Source: Gammaproteobacteria bacterium UBA2168
GTDB lineage: Bacteria > Pseudomonadota > Gammaproteobacteria > Pseudomonadales > Azotimanducaceae
Reading direction: 5' to 3'
Assembly (NCBI GenBank): GCA_002327525.1
Contig: DCWG01000158.1
Location: 1 to 44,134, forward strand
DNA length: 44,134 bases
Below, in pieces: positions 18,495 through 29,200 of this stretch. The position numbers were made by a program, and so were the translations under genes. Under the pieces are notes generated by a model. That model worked only from the letters and a program-made list of their open reading frames with translations. It searched no databases and was not told the origin of the DNA. Each line of letters starts with the position of its first letter. The first letter of the stretch is position 1.

Positions 18495-19259
18495 GTGTCT
18501 GCGAGCCAAAGATACTTCGAAAACTACGAGCCCGGCGGTTCTGGGGGGGACGTCCTCGGAATCGCGCTGGCAGTAAACCGGGTACTCGATGAGCGCGTCG
18601 ACATCGAAGCGGTTCGCAAGTGTATCGATGGTCTCGCGGCAAGCAAGCCGACTGATCTCGCACCCTGGTGTTACCTCGGTGAGGAGGGATTCTGCGGCAC
18701 TCGCCGTGGTTATCGAGGTCTCGATGGCAGCCGCATGGACTGCGTGTTCGAGCAACGCAAAGGTATCCCCATTACGCTCGGAGTGCTGCTGGTGCACATC
18801 GCCGAATACGATGGGATGAGAGCGTGGGGCATTAACTTCCCCGGACACTTTCTCGTGCGTCTGGATGATCAGCTGGTAGATCCCTTCGAGATGAGGCCGA
18901 TAGAAGAGGCGGAATGCGTCGCGCGATTACCGGACGGGGTCGAGGCTGGTGATGACGCCTTTAAGGCAATGACCCCCGTCATGGTCGGTGTGCGTATGTT
19001 GAACAACGTCAAATACCACTACGTCGGTGCACGGCAGTGGGATCAGGCACTCGGGATTATCGACCATCAGATACGCCTGGTACCGCGTGAGGCGCTGTTG
19101 TTTTTCGAACGGGGCGAGTTCTGGCGCAATGCCGGATCCGCGGACATGGCGCGGGATGCCTATCTCAAGGCAGGTAAGCTGGCGCAAGATGCCGATCTGC
19201 TGCGCGCCATCGAGGCGCGGCTGGACGGCGTGCGACGAGGCTCAGACACGCTTCACTAG
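18495..19259 (+). CDS. SirB1/YchA-like transglutaminase-fold protein with TPR tail
   Basis: A 254-residue protein starting at GTG one base after the prfC stop. The middle has the SirB1 family block FGCxxRGYRGLDGSRMDCVFEQ-like text (here EEGFCGTRRGYRGLDGSR) followed by RKGIPITLGVLLVHIAE and INFPGHFLVRLDDQLVDPFEM. Residues 185-250 form two TPR-like helical hairpins (QWDQALGIIDHQIRLVPREALLFFERGEFWRNAG). The Cys and His of a transglutaminase-like site may be those in GFCG and PGHF. The family's cellular role is unsettled. Its stop overlaps the fabY stop on the other strand through a CTAG. Confidence 0.8.
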   Translation: MSASQRYFENYEPGGSGGDVLGIALAVNRVLDERVDIEAVRKCIDGLAASKPTDLAPWCYLGEEGFCGTRRGYRGLDGSRMDCVFEQRKGIPITLGVLLVHIAEYDGMRAWGINFPGHFLVRLDDQLVDPFEMRPIEEAECVARLPDGVEAGDDAFKAMTPVMVGVRMLNNVKYHYVGARQWDQALGIIDHQIRLVPREALLFFERGEFWRNAGSADMARDAYLKAGKLAQDADLLRAIEARLDGVRRGSDTLH

Positions 19260-21103
19260 CTACCGGTCATGTCCGGGTAGGGATTTTCCATGTTGAGGTC
19301 GACGGGCAGTGAGAATCCGGGCAGGCGTATGCCATCCGGTTGGATATCCAGATCCTCTCCCTCCAGCACGCCTTCTCCGAATTTGTAGATCGGTGAGAGG
19401 GTCTCTCGCTGCATCTGTTCATCGTAGGCGCGGGCGTTCTCGCGAACCGGCTCGTTGCGTGCACGGTATGCACTCATTGCGCGGGCTCCCCAGCGTTTCT
19501 CCAGCATCGTCTCGGTAAACTCCGGAGACAGGAAACAGCCGGTGGCGTTGTTGCCACCGAAGCCCTTGGAGTTGACGAAGGCGGCGGGTGTGGAACTGGC
19601 ATCGATGTCCACGTGATCGATGGGTAGTTGCAGGTTGGATCGGTACACGTCGTCCGCTATGTGGTCGATCGTGGTGATACCGGGCACCATGCCGTGATTC
19701 CAGGCGCCGAGTATTGCGGCCAGCTGGTCGCCACCGGCCGGGGCGAGTGTGTGGCCGACGTAAGACTTCACGGCGCCCACCAGCCAGCGATCGATACGGA
19801 AGGTTTTCGCCAGCTCGTTGAGAATGTGTGATTCCGTTACCCGATTCTGCGGTGTACCGGTGCCGTGCGCCTGCATGTAGGTTTGCTTGAGCGCATCCTC
19901 GCCCAGGATGCTGCGTGCATTCGCCATGGCCTTGGCCACGGTGACATAGTTGCCGACTCCCGGACCCGGAATAGACTTTTTGTAACCATCCGCGTTGACG
20001 TAGACGCCGGCTACCGAGCCGAGAACGCTGACGCCGAGTTCCAGGGCCAGTTCGTCATCGACGATCAGCGCGTAAATGGAGGCCTCGGAAATGGCAAAAC
20101 CGCAATTACTCGAGAAAGGCCGGCACGCGCGCCGGTGGTCGGGTGCGCTGCTGCCGTCGAGTTCCATGAGCACCTCGTCTTCGGCGAGCGCGCCCATGAT
20201 GCGGTACGACTCTATGACGTCCGGCAATACCGGCGCTTCGGCGTTACCTACCAGCACGGCGCGCTTCGCACCCGAGCGTATGTCGTCGATGCCGTGTTTG
20301 ACGTTGTACAGAAATGTAGCGCATGCACCGATAATGCCGGCGGTACCGCCGACTGAGCCGAGCACGTATGCGTTGATGAAATCGGCGGCCATTTCAGGCA
20401 GACCCAGCGGGCAGTTTTTCGACGTGGGCCGCTTGCCCAGCATCGGATTTTGCAGCATGCCGCCGTAGCCTTCCCGATCGAGCTGCGCCATCGCGCTGCC
20501 GGAATAGACGGCAAACTCATCCGGCGCGATGGTGTCTTTCAGCGTCTCGACGCTTATACCGGAGGAACGCAGCGCATCGGATGCGCCGAAAAGAGTCAGC
20601 TGCAAACCACGCGGGTGGTTGCGTGATGGGTAGATGGCGCCGGGGTCGAAACCGGTTGGCACCTGACCGGCACTGGAGACCTGCGAAACGCGTGTGTCGG
20701 GCAGCAACGTGGCGAGCTTGTCATCGATATCGACCGTGACGTCTTCGCCGTGGTCGGTGATGCGCCAGCCGTGGGGGAGTTCCTCCGGCAACTGCTTTTT
20801 CGAGAGTCTGAACGTGATCGGCTGATCCCCTGCCCGGAGGCTCAGGCTCCTGTTCCAACGCACCGCGTCGGGATCGAAAAGTTCCACCCGCCGCACCAGT
20901 GTATGAGCATCGATGTACTTGCGAGTATCGGCGAGATCCGGATCGGTGTGCAGGTTCATCAGCGTGGCGAGGCTGCGGTAGGTGCGGCTCTTGTCCGCTT
21001 CACCGAGCCGTTCAATGACCATGCGGCGATAGGCGTGATCGAAGGACACCCGGCCTGCCGGACTCACCCCTCCGAATCCCACGATGACGGGTAGTCGCGT
21101 CAA
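19256..21103 (-). CDS. fabY: FabY-type beta-ketoacyl-ACP synthase
   Basis: A 615-residue protein, far longer than FabB/FabF (about 410), matching the long ketosynthases typified by P. aeruginosa FabY. FabY starts fatty acid synthesis from acetyl-CoA and malonyl-ACP in place of FabH. It opens LPVIVGFGGVSPAGR and MVIERL, as FabY does. The Cys-His-His triad is visible: Cys261 in IIGACATFLYN, His413 in MQAHGTGTPQNRVTES and His451 in YVGHTLAPAGGDQ. A late NSKGFGGNNATG block completes the thiolase fold. The start must be TTG at 21103, since a stop lies just upstream. It begins six bases after the thiolase gene, so they are one operon. Confidence 0.88.
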   Translation of the reverse strand: MTRLPVIVGFGGVSPAGRVSFDHAYRRMVIERLGEADKSRTYRSLATLMNLHTDPDLADTRKYIDAHTLVRRVELFDPDAVRWNRSLSLRAGDQPITFRLSKKQLPEELPHGWRITDHGEDVTVDIDDKLATLLPDTRVSQVSSAGQVPTGFDPGAIYPSRNHPRGLQLTLFGASDALRSSGISVETLKDTIAPDEFAVYSGSAMAQLDREGYGGMLQNPMLGKRPTSKNCPLGLPEMAADFINAYVLGSVGGTAGIIGACATFLYNVKHGIDDIRSGAKRAVLVGNAEAPVLPDVIESYRIMGALAEDEVLMELDGSSAPDHRRACRPFSSNCGFAISEASIYALIVDDELALELGVSVLGSVAGVYVNADGYKKSIPGPGVGNYVTVAKAMANARSILGEDALKQTYMQAHGTGTPQNRVTESHILNELAKTFRIDRWLVGAVKSYVGHTLAPAGGDQLAAILGAWNHGMVPGITTIDHIADDVYRSNLQLPIDHVDIDASSTPAAFVNSKGFGGNNATGCFLSPEFTETMLEKRWGARAMSAYRARNEPVRENARAYDEQMQRETLSPIYKFGEGVLEGEDLDIQPDGIRLPGFSLPVDLNMENPYPDMTGS

Positions 21104-21109
21104 ATCAGA

Positions 21110-22267
21110 TTACCGTTGAAGTGCCACGGCCGTGGCTTCACCACCGCCGATGCATAGTGCGGCGATACCGCGCTGGAGGTCGTTGCGCTGCATCGCATGC
21201 GCAAGGGTTACGAGCAGGCGTGAGCCGGTGGAGCCGATCGGGTGGCCCTGTGCGCACGCGCCGCCGTAAATATTGACGCGCTCCGGATCGAGACCGCATT
21301 CCTGAATGGCGAGCATGGTCACCATGGCGAAGGCTTCATTGATCTCGAAGAGATCCACTTCATCGACACTCCAGCCGAGTTTATCGAGCAACGTGTTGAT
21401 CGCTCCCACCGGTGCGATGGTGAATTCACTCGGGTGGCGCGAGAATGTGGTGTGTCCGGCGATACGCGCCAGCGGTGCGCGTCCGGCAAGGCCCGCCTGG
21501 GATGAGATCACGAGTGCGGACGCGCCGTCGGAGATAGAACTGGAATTGGCTGCCGTAATCGTGCCGTCGGCCTTGAAGGCGGGTCTTAATTGCGGGATCT
21601 TCCCGAGGCGTGCGCGCCCGGGCTGCTCGTCGTCCGTGACCAGCTCACCGCCGATCTCCATCGGAGAAATCTCATCCGCCAGCGTTCCTGCTTCGATGGC
21701 GTGACGCGCACGCGTCACGGATTCGATGGCGTACGCATCCATTGCTTCGCGAGTGAGCTGGTACTCATCGGCGGTACCCTGTGCGAACGTGCCCATGGCC
21801 ATACCGGTCTCCGCATCTTCCAATCCGTCGAAGAACATCGAATCTTTCAGCTCCATGTGCCCCATGCGGGCGCCACTGCGCACCTTGGCGTTGAGGTAAG
21901 GCGTGTTGGTCATGCTCTCCATGCCGCCGCAGACCACGATTTCGGCGCTGCCCGCCCGGATCAGGTCGGCGGCGAGCATAGTGGTCTTCATACCCGAGCC
22001 GCAGACCTTGTTGACGGTAGTCGCACCGACCGCGTCCGGTAGGCCGGCCATGCGCATCGCCTGACGCGCAGGTGCTTGTTTAAGCCCGGCGCTGACGACG
22101 TTGCCGATGAACACCTCGTCGACATCGTCGCCACTGAGATCGACAGCGTCGAGGGCGGCTCGAATGGCGTGGGCGCCGAGTTCCGGCGCGGATTTGGTTT
22201 TCAGCGCACCCTGAAAGCTGCCGATAGGCGTACGGGCGGCGGAGAGGATATAGACTTCCTGACTCAC
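21110..22267 (-). CDS. Acetyl-CoA C-acetyltransferase (thiolase)
   Basis: A 385-residue thiolase II-type protein. The acyl-enzyme Cys lies in VNKVCGSGMKT, preceded by family text GNVVSAGLKQAPARQAMRMAGLP. The NEAFA motif and a QGHPIGSTGSR motif carry the catalytic His residues, and CIGGGEATA carries the second Cys; the last two differ slightly from the usual ALGHPIGASG and CIGGGQG. GTG at 22267 is preferred because AGGAG lies just upstream and the protein then begins VSQEVYILSAARTPIG. It could work in beta-oxidation or condense two acetyl-CoA. It is co-transcribed with fabY, six bases ahead of it. Confidence 0.88.
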   Translation of the reverse strand: MSQEVYILSAARTPIGSFQGALKTKSAPELGAHAIRAALDAVDLSGDDVDEVFIGNVVSAGLKQAPARQAMRMAGLPDAVGATTVNKVCGSGMKTTMLAADLIRAGSAEIVVCGGMESMTNTPYLNAKVRSGARMGHMELKDSMFFDGLEDAETGMAMGTFAQGTADEYQLTREAMDAYAIESVTRARHAIEAGTLADEISPMEIGGELVTDDEQPGRARLGKIPQLRPAFKADGTITAANSSSISDGASALVISSQAGLAGRAPLARIAGHTTFSRHPSEFTIAPVGAINTLLDKLGWSVDEVDLFEINEAFAMVTMLAIQECGLDPERVNIYGGACAQGHPIGSTGSRLLVTLAHAMQRNDLQRGIAALCIGGGEATAVALQR

Positions 22268-22347
22268 TGGGCTCCTCACGGGATTTCCTGAAGGGATGGT
22301 ACGTGGTTGAAAACGCGCCATTCTATCTCAGCACGGGTTGTGTTTGT

Positions 22348-22863
22348 TCACATTTCCCTGAACCGGGGAGAGAGCTCCGCAAAGTTGCAAGGCTTGTTGT
22401 TGATGTCGAGCTGGTTGCGGATGATTTGCTCCCAGCCGGTGCGCACCGCGTTGTTGGAACCCGGCAGCGCGAAGATCAGAGTGGCGTTGGCGAGTCCGCC
22501 CACCGCACGTGACTGAATGGTGGAAGATCCGATATCTTCCCAGGACAGCTGCCGGAACAACTCACCGAAACCCAGAATGGTCTTGTCGAACAGCGGTGTG
22601 AGTGCTTCGGGCGTGTTGTCGCGACCGGTGAAGCCGGTGCCTCCCGTGGTGAGGATCACCTCTATGTCCTCGCGGGCGATCCAGTCCGAGACCACCGCAC
22701 GTAATTGATAGACATTGTCTTTGCAGATGGTGCGCTCGATGAGGGTATGGCCTGCCTCGCTCACGAGGGTTTCGAGCAGATCGCCGGATGTGTCGTCTTT
22801 CGGGGTTCTCGTGTCGGAGACGGTGAGAACCGCGCAGGGCATGGATACGTGTTCTTGGGTCAT
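22348..22863 (-). CDS. moaB: MoaB/MogA-family molybdopterin adenylyltransferase-like protein
   Basis: A 171-residue protein. The core motifs are [21 protein letters not shown] near the N-terminus and [19 protein letters not shown], the molybdopterin-binding loop. [21 protein letters not shown] and [11 protein letters not shown] follow, as in MoaB. MoaB/MogA activate molybdopterin by adenylation before Mo insertion. The cofactor would be needed by MsrP at 12.8 kb, though that link is only inferred. ATG at 22863 matches the E. coli MoaB length; a TTG seven codons earlier is less likely. It heads the minus-strand run moaB-thiolase-fabY and diverges from the fused carboxylase over 64 bases. Confidence 0.87.
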
Positions 22864-22927
22864 GGATTGCTTGGAGGGGGGCAAGTGGCTAGAGTGGCGG
22901 CAATTCTACACCCAGACGCAATGATTA

Positions 22928-25900
22928 GTGGAAAAGCAACTCATCGAAGGGGATAGGCTGTTCCTCATCGCCGAAAACCTGGCACAGGACTTTTCCCTCT
23001 TTCCCACCAGCGTCGGGAGCGACGATGTGCTGCCCGGGCTCCTCACCGATTCGGAAATCACGCGGCGCGCGGAGCATCTTCAGCAGCTCGACATAGACTC
23101 CTATATCGAGTCGGTGGTCGCACCGGCCGAGAGCCAGGTGCGGCCGGCCGCGCCTGGCGTGATCCGGGAATTGGGTGAGGTCACTGAAGAAGCCTCGGAT
23201 GGACCTTTTTACTCCGCCGTCGTGATGATGGACTTCGACGGCGGCGACCGGCTCGTTGGATTCATCGCCCAGGACCGGTCTGTGGAAAACGGCATGTGGG
23301 GGCCGAGCCACCACATGCAGGCGGCCAAGAGCATCGAGCGCTATGCCACTCGTTCAATACCCATAGTAACCTTGATGGATACTCCCGGTGCTGATTCGCG
23401 GGAAGATGCCAATGCCAACAATCAGGCGCATAGTATCTCCCGGCTGATCGCCGAAGCGAGCAACGTGGATGTCCCCAATGTTGGCATCGTCTTTGGCATC
23501 GGCTACTCCGGGGGGGCGATTCCGCTCGCGGCCAGCAACATGATCCTGTCGGTGCGCGATGGTGTATTCAGTACCATCCAGCCACCGGGCCTCGCCAGCA
23601 TTGCGCGGCGTTTGAATCTGAGCTGGCAGGAGTGCGCCAAGTATGTCGGTCTGTCGCCCTACGAGCTCTATACTCAGGGCAACATCGATGGCGTGATCGA
23701 CTACAGTCCGATGGATCCGGACTCCGTGGAAAACCTACGCCGGGCCATTATCCACGGGCTTGTGAGTATCGAGACGGTGACCAAGGCGTTTGTCGCCGAG
23801 AATCCCTACATTCTCGATCACTACCGGCAGAGCATCCGCCGCTACCTCAATCCGTCCACCCAACTGCAGGCCATGCAAGCGAGCGCCGCGCTCAAACTCA
23901 CAAAAAACCCCACCGAATATCTGAACGTGTTCGGTGTTGCCTACAGATACCTGCGCTATCTGAAGGTTCGTCAGCGCATTCATTCCACCAGCTTGCAGCA
24001 ATACGGTCGCCTGGCGGATCGCGAACTGCCGACGGGTGAGTTGCAGACACGTGCCAACCTTGAACGACGGCGCACCTTTCTTAAGTGGCTGCAGGACCCG
24101 GACAAGGTGGTGTACGACGAGACGCTCACGAAGGCGTGGCGTAACTACAACGACAAGAAGCAGGCAGTACACGACGAGCGGGGGCGCATCGCCCAGCTCA
24201 TCTTCGGCGAGCCGAGGAAGAACTACGAACAGGCGCGCGACCTGCTGATCGCCACCGTGGGCGTATTCCTCTACAACCGCTGGAAGGCGGAAGCACCTGG
24301 TAATCTGAGGGCGCTCAAGGAGTTTCTGCACCGTCCGGACGACACCCGGCTCGTGTTCCAGACAGCGGATATTTCGAATCCGGTGGGGCTGGTCCAGGCG
24401 ATACGCTCGGACGCGGCTTTGCTGGACAGCATGCGTGATCGTTTCACGCACGAGGGCAAGAAACTGCTGCGCGAGGGCGGCACCGAGGAAAAGTCAGAGG
24501 CGTATCTCGCCAATCAGCTGACCTCGGAACTCAACCTGGTGCTGACGGGCGGTGAGCTTGCGAGTCTCATCGAAGATTCGCTGACTCCGGCAGCGCGTGC
24601 TCTGGTGCACGAGGCTTCGGAAATTCGGCTCAATCGGCAGATTCTCACCGACCGCTATACGGATTTCATTACCGCGAAGGAGATGGCCGGCACACTGGTA
24701 GCGTTCAGCGAAATGACCGTGCTCGAGTTGCTGGTCAACGACGAACTGCGCGAGGATTTCATTATTGAGTGCGAAAACCTGCTGATATTCGATTCGGTCT
24801 ACGACCAGGTGATCGCTAATCTCGATACCATTGCCGAAGAGGCTCAGGGTTCTCAGAGCATCTCCCGCGATTCCATGGGACGCCTGGTGGAGACGACGCT
24901 GAGCCTGGCCGCCAAGGGGCTGACCATTGGCAGCGTCGAGGAGATAGAGGCGCAAAACGAGGAGCAGGCGCTCGATCGCTTGCGCACACAGGTGCTCGAC
25001 TGGTATCGGCGTATCATAGATATGCCGAAGGGCAGCGAGTTCTTTCGTACCGTGGAGGAGTGGAAGAAAACTACCTTCTCGCATTTGTCGGATACCCTGT
25101 TCGTGGTGGTGACCTACCTGTTCGAGAGCCTTCTCAGTTCCTATATTCAGGCCGAGACCGGCGGTAGGTCGTACCAGGGACGTATAGCGCCCAAGAACAT
25201 CGGACGCCGCAAGGATTTCTGGTACCGATTGAACCTGGCCTATCGTGACCTGTTGATGCAAAACGTGCTTCGTCGCCTGGCTGCCAAGCACCGGTTCTCC
25301 TACGACGCCTTCGTGGATGCTTACTTCAGCGAGTGGGAAGAGAAGTTTGGCGACCTGCTGAGTTCGGATCCCTGTCAGTTTCCGGGATTTCGCATCTCCA
25401 TCGAGGATGCACTCAACCGGGAGCTGCCGCCGTGCGGAGTCGTCACCGGTTTTGCCCGGTTCAAGCGGGGAGAGATCGATTCACGCGTCGGGTTGGTGGT
25501 GTCCAATACCGCCTTTCAGGCCGGCTCCTTCGACATGGCGAGTGCCGAGAAAGTGTGCAAGATGCTGGTGGAGTGCGCGGAGGCTCACCTGCCCGTTGTC
25601 TGTTTCATTTCCTCCGGCGGTATGCAGACCAAGGAGGGTGCCGGGGCGCTGTTCTCCATGGCGGCGGTAAACGACCGCATCACGCGTTTCGTGCGTGACC
25701 ACGATCTGCCGGTGATCGTGTTTGGGTACGGCAATTGCACGGGCGGCGCGCAAGCGAGCTTCGTCACCCATCCGCTGGCGCAGACCTACTACCTCTCCGG
25801 TACGAGCATGCCTTTCGCCGGTCAGATCGTGGTGCCTAGCAACCTGCCGCTCAACTCCATACTCTCTAATTATCTGTCCCCCGATCCGGAGTCGATGCAG

Positions 25901-27832
25901 GGACTGGTAAAACACCCCTTCCAGCCGGAGCTCGATGACGAGCTGCGCAAGATCGACGCGGAAATCCCGATTCCGGAGGAGACGGTTCCCGAGGTTATCG
26001 AACGCGTGCTGTCCGGCGTGCTCAGTCAGGAACGGCCGGTCGTGGTCGCTCACCGGCCTCACTACACGGATGCCGACCTGGTCAAGCCGGTGCGCCGTGT
26101 GCTTGTTCACGCGCGTGGCTGTACCGCGGCCAAACTCATCCGCATCGCTCAGGCTCGCGAGCACGAGGTGGTGTTGGTGCAATCAGATCCGGACATGGAA
26201 TCCGCGGCGGTGGACCAACTCACCGAACGAGACACATTGGTGTGCATTGGTGGCAACACGCCAGATGAGAGTTATCTCAACGCCATGAGCGTGATGCGAG
26301 TCGCCGAACAGGAAGGGGTCGACGCACTGCACCCCGGTATAGGCTTTCTCTCGGAGAATTCACAGTTTGCCGAACTGGTGCGCTCGCACGGCATCAACTT
26401 CATCGGCCCGCCGGTGTCCAGTATGGAGACCATGGGCAACAAGTCGAATGCCATCAACACGGCACTCAGACTCGACGTGCCGGTGGTGCCCGGCAGCCAC
26501 GGAATCCTGACGAACGTCGACAGGGCTGCCGAGGTGGCGCTCGATATCGGTTACCCGGTCTTGATCAAGGCAGTACACGGCGGTGGTGGGAAAGGCATCC
26601 AGGTAGTGGAATCGGCTGCTGCATTCCACGAGCTGTTCCACCAGGTGCGTGCTGAGGCGCGCGCTGCCTTTGGTAATGGCGATGTGTATCTGGAGAAATA
26701 CATCACCAGTCTGCGGCACATCGAGGTACAGCTGCTGCGGGATACGCACGGCAACACCAGGGTATTGGGATTACGCGACTGCAGCGTGCAGCGCGATAAG
26801 CAGAAGGTATTCGAGGAGTCGGGCTCCACGATGTTGCCAGCGCACCTGGAGGAAGCCGTGTTCCGCCACACGGCGGCCATTGCGAATGAGGTGGGCTACG
26901 TCGGCGCGGGTACCGTGGAGTTCATCTACGATCTTGCCAGCGATGCCATCTACTTCATGGAGATGAATACGCGCCTGCAGGTAGAGCACCCGGTCACCGA
27001 GTGGGTGTCTGGTGTCGATATCGTGGGTGAGCAGTTCCGTATCGCATCGGGAGAGTCCATCGAATCCGTGGAAAGCGTACAAAATGGTTGCGCCATCGAG
27101 GCGCGCATCACCGCCGAGCGCATAGAGGTGAACGCCAGTGGCCAGCCGGTGTTTCGCCCGCAGCCGGGCGAGATACGCGAAGTGGAGTTTCCGCAGGAAG
27201 AGGGGGTTGAGATCATTGCCGCGGTCACCAGCGGCAAGTCCGTCTCTCCGTATTACGACAGCATGGTCGCCCAGGTGATCGTGCACGCGGCGGACCGGAA
27301 CGCGGCCATCGACAAACTGGCCGGTTATATCTCACGCATACGACTCTCCGGCATCAACACCAATATCGCGTTGTTGAAGCGTGTGCTTGCTGATGAAGTG
27401 TTCAGAAACGGGGAATACGACACCAACTACCTGCCGGAATTCCTTCGGCGCACGGACGTGGAGACACTCATCTCGGAGGCCGAGGAAGAGGCCGGTGAGA
27501 GAGGTGAGGTGCTCAGCCTGGAGAGCATTCAGATTGAGGACAGTGACGAGTTGAAAGTGCTTGCGCCAGCCAACGCCATTTTCTACTCCACACCCTCTCC
27601 GACAGAGCCGGAGTTCGTTGCCGTGGGCGATAAGATCGGCATAGATACCACACTCTGCCAACTGGAGGCGATGAAGATTTTCTCGCCTCTGGCGCTCAAG
27701 GACTTCAACACTGAAGTACTACTATACGAAGGCGGAAGGGAGTACGAGGTAACTCGTATCAACATGTCAAATGGTCAGCAGGTGAATAAGGGCAACCTGT
27801 TGTTCGTCGTCAAGCCGCTACATCGGGGCTAG
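22928..27832 (+). CDS. Single-chain acyl-CoA (acetyl-CoA) carboxylase: CT-alpha, CT-beta, biotin carboxylase and biotin carrier fused
   Basis: A 1634-residue protein starting at GTG. Residues 1-280 are AccA-like: MDTPGAD at 150-156, then GIGYSGGAIPLAASN at 190-204. Residues 280-815 are largely helical and match nothing I recognise. Residues 815-1040 are AccD-like: CFISSGG at 892-898, GYGNCTGGAQASF from 933; no AccD zinc-finger cysteines are seen. Residues 1052-1500 are biotin carboxylase, with the ATP-grasp loop HGGGGKG (1217-1223), LRDCSVQRDKQKVFEE, and EMNTRLQVEHPVTE from 1345. The C-terminus is a biotinyl domain with Lys1583 in LEAMKIF. All parts for carboxylating an acyl-CoA are on one chain. 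Known single-chain bacterial carboxylases start with BC, so this order is different. The substrate is inferred as acetyl-CoA from the AccA/AccD likeness and nearby fabY. The GTG has little Shine-Dalgarno support. Confidence 0.88.
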   Translation: MEKQLIEGDRLFLIAENLAQDFSLFPTSVGSDDVLPGLLTDSEITRRAEHLQQLDIDSYIESVVAPAESQVRPAAPGVIRELGEVTEEASDGPFYSAVVMMDFDGGDRLVGFIAQDRSVENGMWGPSHHMQAAKSIERYATRSIPIVTLMDTPGADSREDANANNQAHSISRLIAEASNVDVPNVGIVFGIGYSGGAIPLAASNMILSVRDGVFSTIQPPGLASIARRLNLSWQECAKYVGLSPYELYTQGNIDGVIDYSPMDPDSVENLRRAIIHGLVSIETVTKAFVAENPYILDHYRQSIRRYLNPSTQLQAMQASAALKLTKNPTEYLNVFGVAYRYLRYLKVRQRIHSTSLQQYGRLADRELPTGELQTRANLERRRTFLKWLQDPDKVVYDETLTKAWRNYNDKKQAVHDERGRIAQLIFGEPRKNYEQARDLLIATVGVFLYNRWKAEAPGNLRALKEFLHRPDDTRLVFQTADISNPVGLVQAIRSDAALLDSMRDRFTHEGKKLLREGGTEEKSEAYLANQLTSELNLVLTGGELASLIEDSLTPAARALVHEASEIRLNRQILTDRYTDFITAKEMAGTLVAFSEMTVLELLVNDELREDFIIECENLLIFDSVYDQVIANLDTIAEEAQGSQSISRDSMGRLVETTLSLAAKGLTIGSVEEIEAQNEEQALDRLRTQVLDWYRRIIDMPKGSEFFRTVEEWKKTTFSHLSDTLFVVVTYLFESLLSSYIQAETGGRSYQGRIAPKNIGRRKDFWYRLNLAYRDLLMQNVLRRLAAKHRFSYDAFVDAYFSEWEEKFGDLLSSDPCQFPGFRISIEDALNRELPPCGVVTGFARFKRGEIDSRVGLVVSNTAFQAGSFDMASAEKVCKMLVECAEAHLPVVCFISSGGMQTKEGAGALFSMAAVNDRITRFVRDHDLPVIVFGYGNCTGGAQASFVTHPLAQTYYLSGTSMPFAGQIVVPSNLPLNSILSNYLSPDPESMQGLVKHPFQPELDDELRKIDAEIPIPEETVPEVIERVLSGVLSQERPVVVAHRPHYTDADLVKPVRRVLVHARGCTAAKLIRIAQAREHEVVLVQSDPDMESAAVDQLTERDTLVCIGGNTPDESYLNAMSVMRVAEQEGVDALHPGIGFLSENSQFAELVRSHGINFIGPPVSSMETMGNKSNAINTALRLDVPVVPGSHGILTNVDRAAEVALDIGYPVLIKAVHGGGGKGIQVVESAAAFHELFHQVRAEARAAFGNGDVYLEKYITSLRHIEVQLLRDTHGNTRVLGLRDCSVQRDKQKVFEESGSTMLPAHLEEAVFRHTAAIANEVGYVGAGTVEFIYDLASDAIYFMEMNTRLQVEHPVTEWVSGVDIVGEQFRIASGESIESVESVQNGCAIEARITAERIEVNASGQPVFRPQPGEIREVEFPQEEGVEIIAAVTSGKSVSPYYDSMVAQVIVHAADRNAAIDKLAGYISRIRLSGINTNIALLKRVLADEVFRNGEYDTNYLPEFLRRTDVETLISEAEEEAGERGEVLSLESIQIEDSDELKVLAPANAIFYSTPSPTEPEFVAVGDKIGIDTTLCQLEAMKIFSPLALKDFNTEVLLYEGGREYEVTRINMSNGQQVNKGNLLFVVKPLHRG

Positions 27833-28152
27833 CTGTTCAGAGGCGCGAGTAAGTCGCCGAACCCTTTGTAGAGGCATGCCGCCGCGATTGTGAGAATTAC
27901 CCAACCGCTCACCTTTCGAAAGCGCGCGTCATCGAGACACTCCAATAGGCGCGTGCCTGCGATGGCTGTGAACATGGCCACGGGGTAGAACCGCCAGGTG
28001 AGCGTATCGGTGCTGCCTACGATCAGAGCGTAGTAGATGCGTTTGAGAACATGCCCCAGGGTCTGCGTGATCGCCTTGCTCGCGATGACCTGATAGCGGT
28101 TGAGTGGCGTGTTGAGGTAGAACACATCGAGCCCTCTGAGGCGATTACTCAC
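27829..28152 (-). pseudogene. TSUP (TauE/SafE) transporter remnant, C-terminal part only
   Basis: About 107 residues with the look of the second half of a TSUP anion exporter: LDVFYLNTPLNRYQVIASKAITQTLGHVLKRIYY, then a hydrophobic helix, GTRLLECLDDARFRKVSGWVILTIAAACL and a short end. Full proteins have about 250 residues and seven or eight helices. Upstream in this frame (to 28452) the translation is not TSUP-like, and neither other minus-strand frame supplies the missing half; the divergent LysR gene starts at 28349. The N-terminal half seems deleted. GTG at 28152 could still start a short product. Its end overlaps the carboxylase stop by four bases. The family assignment is by eye. Confidence 0.6.
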
Positions 28153-28348
28153 CCGTGCAAGCCATGGGAAGGCGCCGGTTACATGAAAAAAATGAATAGA
28201 TGAAATATGATGTGCGCCTGATTGGAATAGACCTTCATGGAATACGGTCGCGCGGGAGGTTGTCTGGCACCCTGCACTGCGCGCGGAAAAGAGAAGCACG
28301 TGTCTGCCGTGACAACGGTGCGATCGTGTGGTGCTGAGGGCTCCTGAG

Positions 28349-29200
28349 ATGATCGAAAACCTCGAAACGCTGGTGACCCTGTCCAAGACGGGCACCATGA
28401 TGGAAACCAGTACGCGTCTGAAGATCTCACAGTCGGCTGTGAGTAAACGCATCGCGGCACTCGAGCGTTACTACGATCGTGCCTTGATCGAGCGTAACGG
28501 CCGGCGCGTGGTACTCACCCACCACGGTACCCGGCTGGTGGAAAAGGTGACACCTTTGATATCGGAACTGCGCAGCGTGTTTCTGGAAAACAACGCCCTG
28601 CGCAAGGGCAAGATCATCATCGGCGTCTCGGAGGCCATCCTGGCGAGCTGGGGGCCGAAGCTGTTTGCCGAGGTTCGCAAACGACTGCCGGAGGTGGAGT
28701 TCACATTTCACGCACAGCGCTCGCCGGTGGTGCTCGATCGCATACGCTCGGGCGAGTACATGGTGGGGATCTGCACAGGATCGCCGGATGCGGACACCGA
28801 CCTCCAGAGTGAGACCATCCGGCTCGAACCCATGGTCATCATCCCCTCCGCGCTCGAGCCGCTGAGCTACCAGGTGGGCGAACGTCTGGATGTGATCACC
28901 ATCGAGTCGCGTTCAGGCGCCTGGCGGTCCATCGAAGACGATATGCGGCGCCTGAAGCTCAACCGCCAGGTTTCGTTGGAGTCGTTCTTCAGCGTCGCGC
29001 AGATGGCGCTGGCGGGATTCGGGCACGGCCTGGTACCCGTCGGTGTTGCTCAGACACTCGGTGTGCCGCAGGACAACCTGATCGCGCTGGACAGCTCCGG
29101 CCTCCATCGGCCGGTGCGATTCGTGGCCCGCAAGAGTATGTTCTCTCAACAGCTGGTGCGCAGTTTCTACGAAGAGGTTTCTCTGCTGGCGACAGCCTGA
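28349..29200 (+). CDS. LysR-family transcriptional regulator
   Basis: A 283-residue protein with an N-terminal winged helix-turn-helix (MIENLETLVTLSKTGTMMETSTRLKISQSAVSKRIAALERYY) and a substrate-binding domain (KIIIGVSEAILASWGPKLF through GFGHGLVPVGVAQTLG). ATG at 28349 gives the usual LysR start; a GTG/ATG seven codons earlier is possible. It diverges from the TSUP remnant, and LysR-TSUP pairs are common, so it may once have controlled that transporter. The gap contains a direct repeat TGGAATA at 28223-28229 and 28238-28244. The ligand is unknown. Confidence 0.88.
   Translation: MIENLETLVTLSKTGTMMETSTRLKISQSAVSKRIAALERYYDRALIERNGRRVVLTHHGTRLVEKVTPLISELRSVFLENNALRKGKIIIGVSEAILASWGPKLFAEVRKRLPEVEFTFHAQRSPVVLDRIRSGEYMVGICTGSPDADTDLQSETIRLEPMVIIPSALEPLSYQVGERLDVITIESRSGAWRSIEDDMRRLKLNRQVSLESFFSVAQMALAGFGHGLVPVGVAQTLGVPQDNLIALDSSGLHRPVRFVARKSMFSQQLVRSFYEEVSLLATA

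Follow-up and report, generated by a model that had tools for sequence, protein, structure and literature searches.

The 44,134-nucleotide contig DCWG01000158.1 of Gammaproteobacteria bacterium UBA2168 (this whole stretch is referred to as the window) carries at positions 22928–27832 (+) a so-called accS-type gene, whose product is, as judged from sequence comparison, very probably a complete homomeric acetyl-CoA carboxylase (ACC) that replaces the four-subunit complex and represents the most likely malonyl-CoA source for fatty acid synthesis in this cell. The identification of the gene is supported by its reading frame, by profile searches and by full-length relatives. Its sequence places the product among the AccS/AccADCB-type single-chain ACCs, in which a carboxyltransferase (CT)-alpha domain, a central region, a CT-beta domain, a biotin carboxylase (BC) domain and a biotin carboxyl carrier protein (BCCP) domain follow one another, an architecture which is already known and solved. 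New here are the wider spread of this enzyme type, its long form, a retained AccB and a linked LysR-type gene.

Domain architecture and predicted mechanism

Positions 22928–27832 form one uninterrupted frame of 1634 amino acids with a GTG start and no internal stop. Reading the sequence by eye, no strong Shine-Dalgarno sequence was seen before this GTG and the ATG located just 5' of it is out of frame; the GTG is provisionally retained as the exact start codon.

The CT-alpha (AccA-like) domain extends over residues 58–300 approximately (23099–23827, +) and includes a match to Pfam ACCA at residues 121–258 (E 1.2e-22). The CT-beta (AccD-like) domain corresponds to residues 801–1040 or thereabouts (25328–26047, +), and was recognized by NCBIfam accD (residues 803–947, E 3.6e-10) and by comparison with the E. 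coli subunit. The BC domain (residues 1053–1507; 26084–27448, +) matches NCBIfam and, at residues 1055–1503, Pfam Biotin_carb_N, CPSase_L_D2 and Biotin_carb_C (E 5.5e-28 to 2e-62), while the BCCP domain (residues 1532–1631; 27521–27820, +) was assigned by NCBIfam (residues 1532–1629, E 1.5e-10) and by comparison with E. coli AccB. The original prediction of a single polypeptide with the order CT-alpha, CT-beta, BC and BCCP, including a complete BC at 1052–1500 and a biotinyl Lys1583, is thus borne out by the frame and by the Pfam and NCBIfam profiles; its AccA-like (150–204) and AccD-like (892–940) segments were correctly identified, yet represent only the cores of larger domains. When profiles built from the relatives of each domain were compared to the four E. 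coli subunits, CT-alpha scored against AccA (73.7 bits), CT-beta against AccD (29.9), BC against AccC (431.8) and BCCP against AccB (52.8), whereas the central-region profile returned no positive score to any of the four.

This central, all-helical region (residues 301–800 approximately; 23828–25327, +) has so far been found solely in AccS-type enzymes. The roughly 500 residues between the CT halves had been described as matching nothing recognizable, which holds for Pfam, where no family was obtained at E<=0.001, but not for solved structures, among which PDB 9kkm, and 9kkm alone, is a clear match.

We infer the activity, substrate and assembly of the window protein as follows. Lys1583 of the C-terminal BCCP domain would be biotinylated by BirA, and the BC domain would then carboxylate this biotin with ATP and bicarbonate. 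The BCCP would swing to a CT module formed by the AccA-like domain at the N terminus and the AccD-like domain in the middle of the chain, where acetyl-CoA would be converted to malonyl-CoA. The central helical region would most likely hold the two CT halves together and carry the dimer contacts. The accS gene is probably essential.

Relationship to AccS of Shewanella oneidensis and to other carboxylases

The best solved relative of the window protein is 9kkm, a full-length match of 1669 bits which aligns in two stretches (8–468 and 593–1631) and skips an insert. Its Foldseek title describes an acetyl-CoA carboxyltransferase holoenzyme dimer of Shewanella oneidensis, mutant E1238A, and the entry was released on 2025-11-19; by simple offset, E1238 would lie near E1353 of the window protein (E296 of E. 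coli). The CT module and the central region both match 9kkm structurally. The novelty which the original prediction implied does not stand, because S. oneidensis AccS, characterized under that name and as AccADCB (SO_0840; PDB 9kkm and 9w4a), has the same architecture. The two proteins are homologous over their full length and collinear in domain order, they share 50.5% identity over 463 N-terminal residues, and the central helical region is common to both. They differ in length, S. oneidensis AccS having 1517 amino acids and the window protein 1634, the latter possessing an extra helical insert of ~110 residues. According to PMC4793157, AccS is listed as SO_0840 with 1517 amino acids, AccABCD homologues were not found in S. 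oneidensis, with AccS in their place, and an extra AccB, SO_0511, is present. S. oneidensis AccS/AccADCB is also described in PMC11602165, and for this homologue the literature reports biotinylation and ACC function in vivo.

Each domain of the window protein other than the added central region has one homologous subunit in the heteromeric E. coli ACC (AccA, AccD, AccC and AccB), from which the window protein differs in being a single chain and in lacking the zinc-ribbon cysteines of AccD. Eukaryotic-type and Saccharopolyspora (SACE_4237) multidomain ACCs and the bacterial long-chain acyl-CoA carboxylase (LCC) are likewise single-chain biotin-dependent acyl-CoA carboxylases, but in them BC occupies the N terminus and CT the C terminus, with the beta-like half ahead of the alpha-like one. 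In the window protein CT comes first, alpha then beta, and both halves precede the BC at 1055–1503, so that the contrast originally drawn with BC-first enzymes holds. For eukaryotic ACC, the order BC-BCCP-CT is given in the literature.

Conservation of catalytic residues

Residue conservation was assessed in an alignment of 79 rows, comprising the query and 78 relatives of at least 1500 amino acids each. Of the 95 matching frames, copies of the window protein and two frames truncated by contig ends were set aside and 85 with a length of 1500 amino acids or more were kept; removal of those with identical last 1300 residues left 78. Eighteen of the 24 AccC positions checked are occupied by the E. 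coli residue in every one of the 79 rows, i.e., K116, K159, G163–G166, E201, H209, E211, Q233, K238, E276, E288, N290, R292, Q294, E296 and R338. Equally invariant are Gly195-Gly196 in the motif GIGYSGGA (23510–23515, +), which align to AccA Gly206-Gly207 and to which we ascribe an oxyanion role, Gly939-Gly940 (25742–25747, +), aligned to AccD Gly204-Gly205, and the predicted biotinylation site Lys1583 in LEAMKIF (codon at 27674–27676, +), aligned to AccB Lys122. The functional roles of the BC, CT and BCCP positions checked are assumed to be those of the E. coli enzyme. Cys27, Cys30, Cys46 and Cys49 of E. coli AccD, which presumably form the N-terminal zinc ribbon of that subunit, have no counterpart in the window protein, and no CxxC pair was found anywhere in the chain.

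Distribution of AccS and its long and short forms

Of 7996 candidates scored in a protein database search, 1348 matched at E<=0.001; the 120 matches listed, the window protein among them, measure 1573–1671 amino acids and exhibit 96–100% query coverage and 67–100% identity. A scan of GTDB genomes yielded 107 relatives, from which 80 loci were kept, mostly from gammaproteobacterial metagenome-assembled genomes (MAGs), but also from Psychromonas isolates, Arenicella, and MAGs of Acidobacteriota and SAR324. The occurrence of AccS is consequently wider than in the literature, the acidobacterial and SAR324 MAGs being added by the present analysis. One acidobacterial copy is located on a 3.9-Mb contig and a binning error is therefore disfavoured there. 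In a quick tree of the 79 rows, which is rooted at the midpoint only and in which long-branch joins are to be reckoned with, all 14 Acidobacteriota rows lie to the same side of a branch with support 99, and the four SAR324 rows group together.

AccS proteins occur in two forms, which are distinguished by a clade-specific insert at residues 480–592 approximately of the window protein (24365–24703, +), as delineated by the break in the 9kkm alignment (468/593) and by row lengths in the alignment. The corresponding columns (query residues 470–592) hold 107–133 residues in 48 rows and 7–20 in the other 31. The window protein belongs to the long form; Psychromonas, Arenicella, Acidobacteriota and SAR324 are among the rows of the short form, to which S. 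oneidensis AccS also belongs, judging from the alignment break. In structure models the insert is mostly helical.

Loss of canonical accA and accD

The presence of canonical subunit genes was examined in 38 related genomes, 25 of the window's own family (the genome of the window included) and 13 of other families. AccS was found in 23 of the 25 family genomes (21 full copies and two, in G009 and G022, cut by contig ends), and was not found in G002 and G019. No family genome has accA over cut-off, as opposed to 12 of the 13 genomes of other families, and in the thirteenth (G036) a contig end truncates accA, which falls 0.7 bit short; accD is similarly over cut-off in none of the 25 versus all 13. 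The separate-gene check proposed in the original prediction found no accA, accD or accC over cut-off in the window's own genome and a single accB match, without accC between it and prmA. In a further sample, made up of the genomes that carry 30 of the 80 AccS loci, all of the short form, neither accA nor accD was over cut-off in any of the 30, for which completeness figures are not given and two of which amount to only 1.5–1.7 Mb. Taken together, 53 of 54 AccS-holding genomes are without accA and accD over cut-off, the exception being G030.

Alternative explanations

Several observations weigh against an ACC that stands in for the four-subunit complex. The remaining six of the 24 AccC positions (169, 204, 236, 278, 287 and 295) do not carry the E. 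coli residue throughout: a single row departs at 295, the substitutions at 169, 204, 278 and 287 mostly involve either a different aliphatic residue or Met, and position 236 varies widely (N in 36 of the 79 rows, K in 33). The accD profile scores CT-beta at 39.7 bits, far below its cut-off of 317.45, and with so weak a signal substrate drift could have occurred. G030, from another family, combines a divergent AccS-like protein of 1527 amino acids with all four canonical subunits over cut-off. AccS is missing from G002 and G019, and neither accA nor accD reaches its cut-off there, so that members of the window's family may have a further route to malonyl-CoA, while enzymes of the propionyl-CoA carboxylase/methylcrotonyl-CoA carboxylase type in the window's own genome, which is 91.39% complete, might supply some malonyl-CoA. 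These last two points would also suit an acyl-CoA carboxylase of different or wider specificity (propionyl-CoA or longer-chain acyl-CoA), fatty acid malonyl-CoA then being derived from another enzyme; the CT halves are only distantly similar to AccA and AccD of E. coli, and sequence does not fix the acyl-CoA substrate. Such an enzyme is nevertheless improbable, given that the CT halves are of the AccA/AccD type, as in S. oneidensis ACC, and that accA and accD are not over cut-off in the 53 genomes mentioned.

The notion of a relic or auxiliary copy devoid of ACC activity finds nothing direct in its favour, apart from the AccB which the own genome retains without an adjacent accC, and is very improbable: the frame is open, the catalytic residues are kept in 79 rows, and that genome has no further AccA or AccD above cut-off. 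Although the genome is an assembly of 165 contigs, the likelihood that the fusion is an assembly artefact is negligible, as similar length and 96–100% coverage are observed in all 120 database entries listed, single frames occur in Psychromonas isolates and a homologue has been solved. A chance or misassembled fusion was accordingly rejected on the basis of the full-length relatives, the Psychromonas single frames and 9kkm, and a functional AccS-type ACC is retained as the preferred reading. As a separate observation, the AccS-like gene of G030 (L104 2045–6610) adjoins a trans-2-enoyl reductase gene, which we take to be of the FabV type.

Retention of accB

The accB gene is over cut-off in 16 of the 25 family genomes, and the surroundings of all 16 were read. 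The order aroQ-accB-accC-prmA is present in five (G001, G002, G008, G014 and G019), while accC is absent between accB and prmA in eleven, the own genome included; in one of these (G011), aroQ too was not seen next to accB. On contig C58 of the own genome (L101 1–1530) the order is aroQ-accB-prmA. The biotin motif ESMKMM is kept in all 16 AccB proteins. No frame in the own genome reaches the accC cut-off of 626.5, the best (603.6) lying inside a 688-residue frame, although this cut-off is not a clean test, as it is also missed by the accB-adjacent accC of G001, G008, G014 and G019. Other BC-domain frames are present in the own genome, mostly of 640–701 amino acids with one of 535 on contig C9, and AccB may therefore have a BC at its disposal. 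AccB may have a partner other than an adjacent accC, because BC frames of ~440–535 amino acids are found elsewhere in several of the eleven genomes (C9 of the own genome, G004, G011, G012, G015, G016, G017 and G020). Of note, accB-accC is present in G002 and G019 (L105, L106 and L121), and in G002 two CT-like genes (516 and 518 amino acids) have a 94-residue BCCP-like frame next to them.

The spread of AccS, the loss of accA and accD, and the keeping of AccB after accC left the operon constitute a natural experiment on the replacement of a four-subunit complex by a single chain. A joint reading, which we regard as conceivable though rather doubtful, would make AccS, rather than a rarity confined to a handful of gammaproteobacterial genera, a third class of ACC that is widespread across Pseudomonadota, Acidobacteriota and SAR324 and ousts accA and accD wherever it has settled, with the family operon decaying in order, accC being lost first and a biotinylatable AccB kept. 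This AccB, uncoupled from its own carboxylase, would then be either a free biotin carrier charged by the BC of AccS or a biotin/BirA sensor.

Neighbouring genes

The divergent upstream neighbour of accS is moaB (22348–22884, −; TIGR02667, 254 bits), which holds this position in 32 of the 80 loci, whereas accR is the divergent neighbour in Shewanella; the window locus has instead a same-direction downstream gene for a LysR-type regulator (28328–29200, +; Pfam HTH_1 and LysR_substrate). A downstream same-strand LysR gene is present in 31 of the 80 loci when frames of more than 230 amino acids are considered and in 32 by tblastn (60–84% identity), 69 of the 80 having more than 1.5 kb of downstream sequence. 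It represents a candidate regulator of accS, the second such candidate, and may be the second LysR-type transcriptional regulator remarked on, without known role, in PMC11602165, the description of which it fits.

Behind moaB and on the same strand, positions 19256–22321 encode a thiolase and a 615-residue FabF-like ketoacyl synthase; a thiolase is located upstream of accS in 34 of the 80 loci, and the FabF-like synthase is found on the moaB strand in 37, with two more weak matches on the other strand. A short minus-strand frame at 27829–28452, without NCBIfam or Pfam match, has similar counterparts in 23 of the 80 loci, two of these matches being short and lying over the LysR gene.
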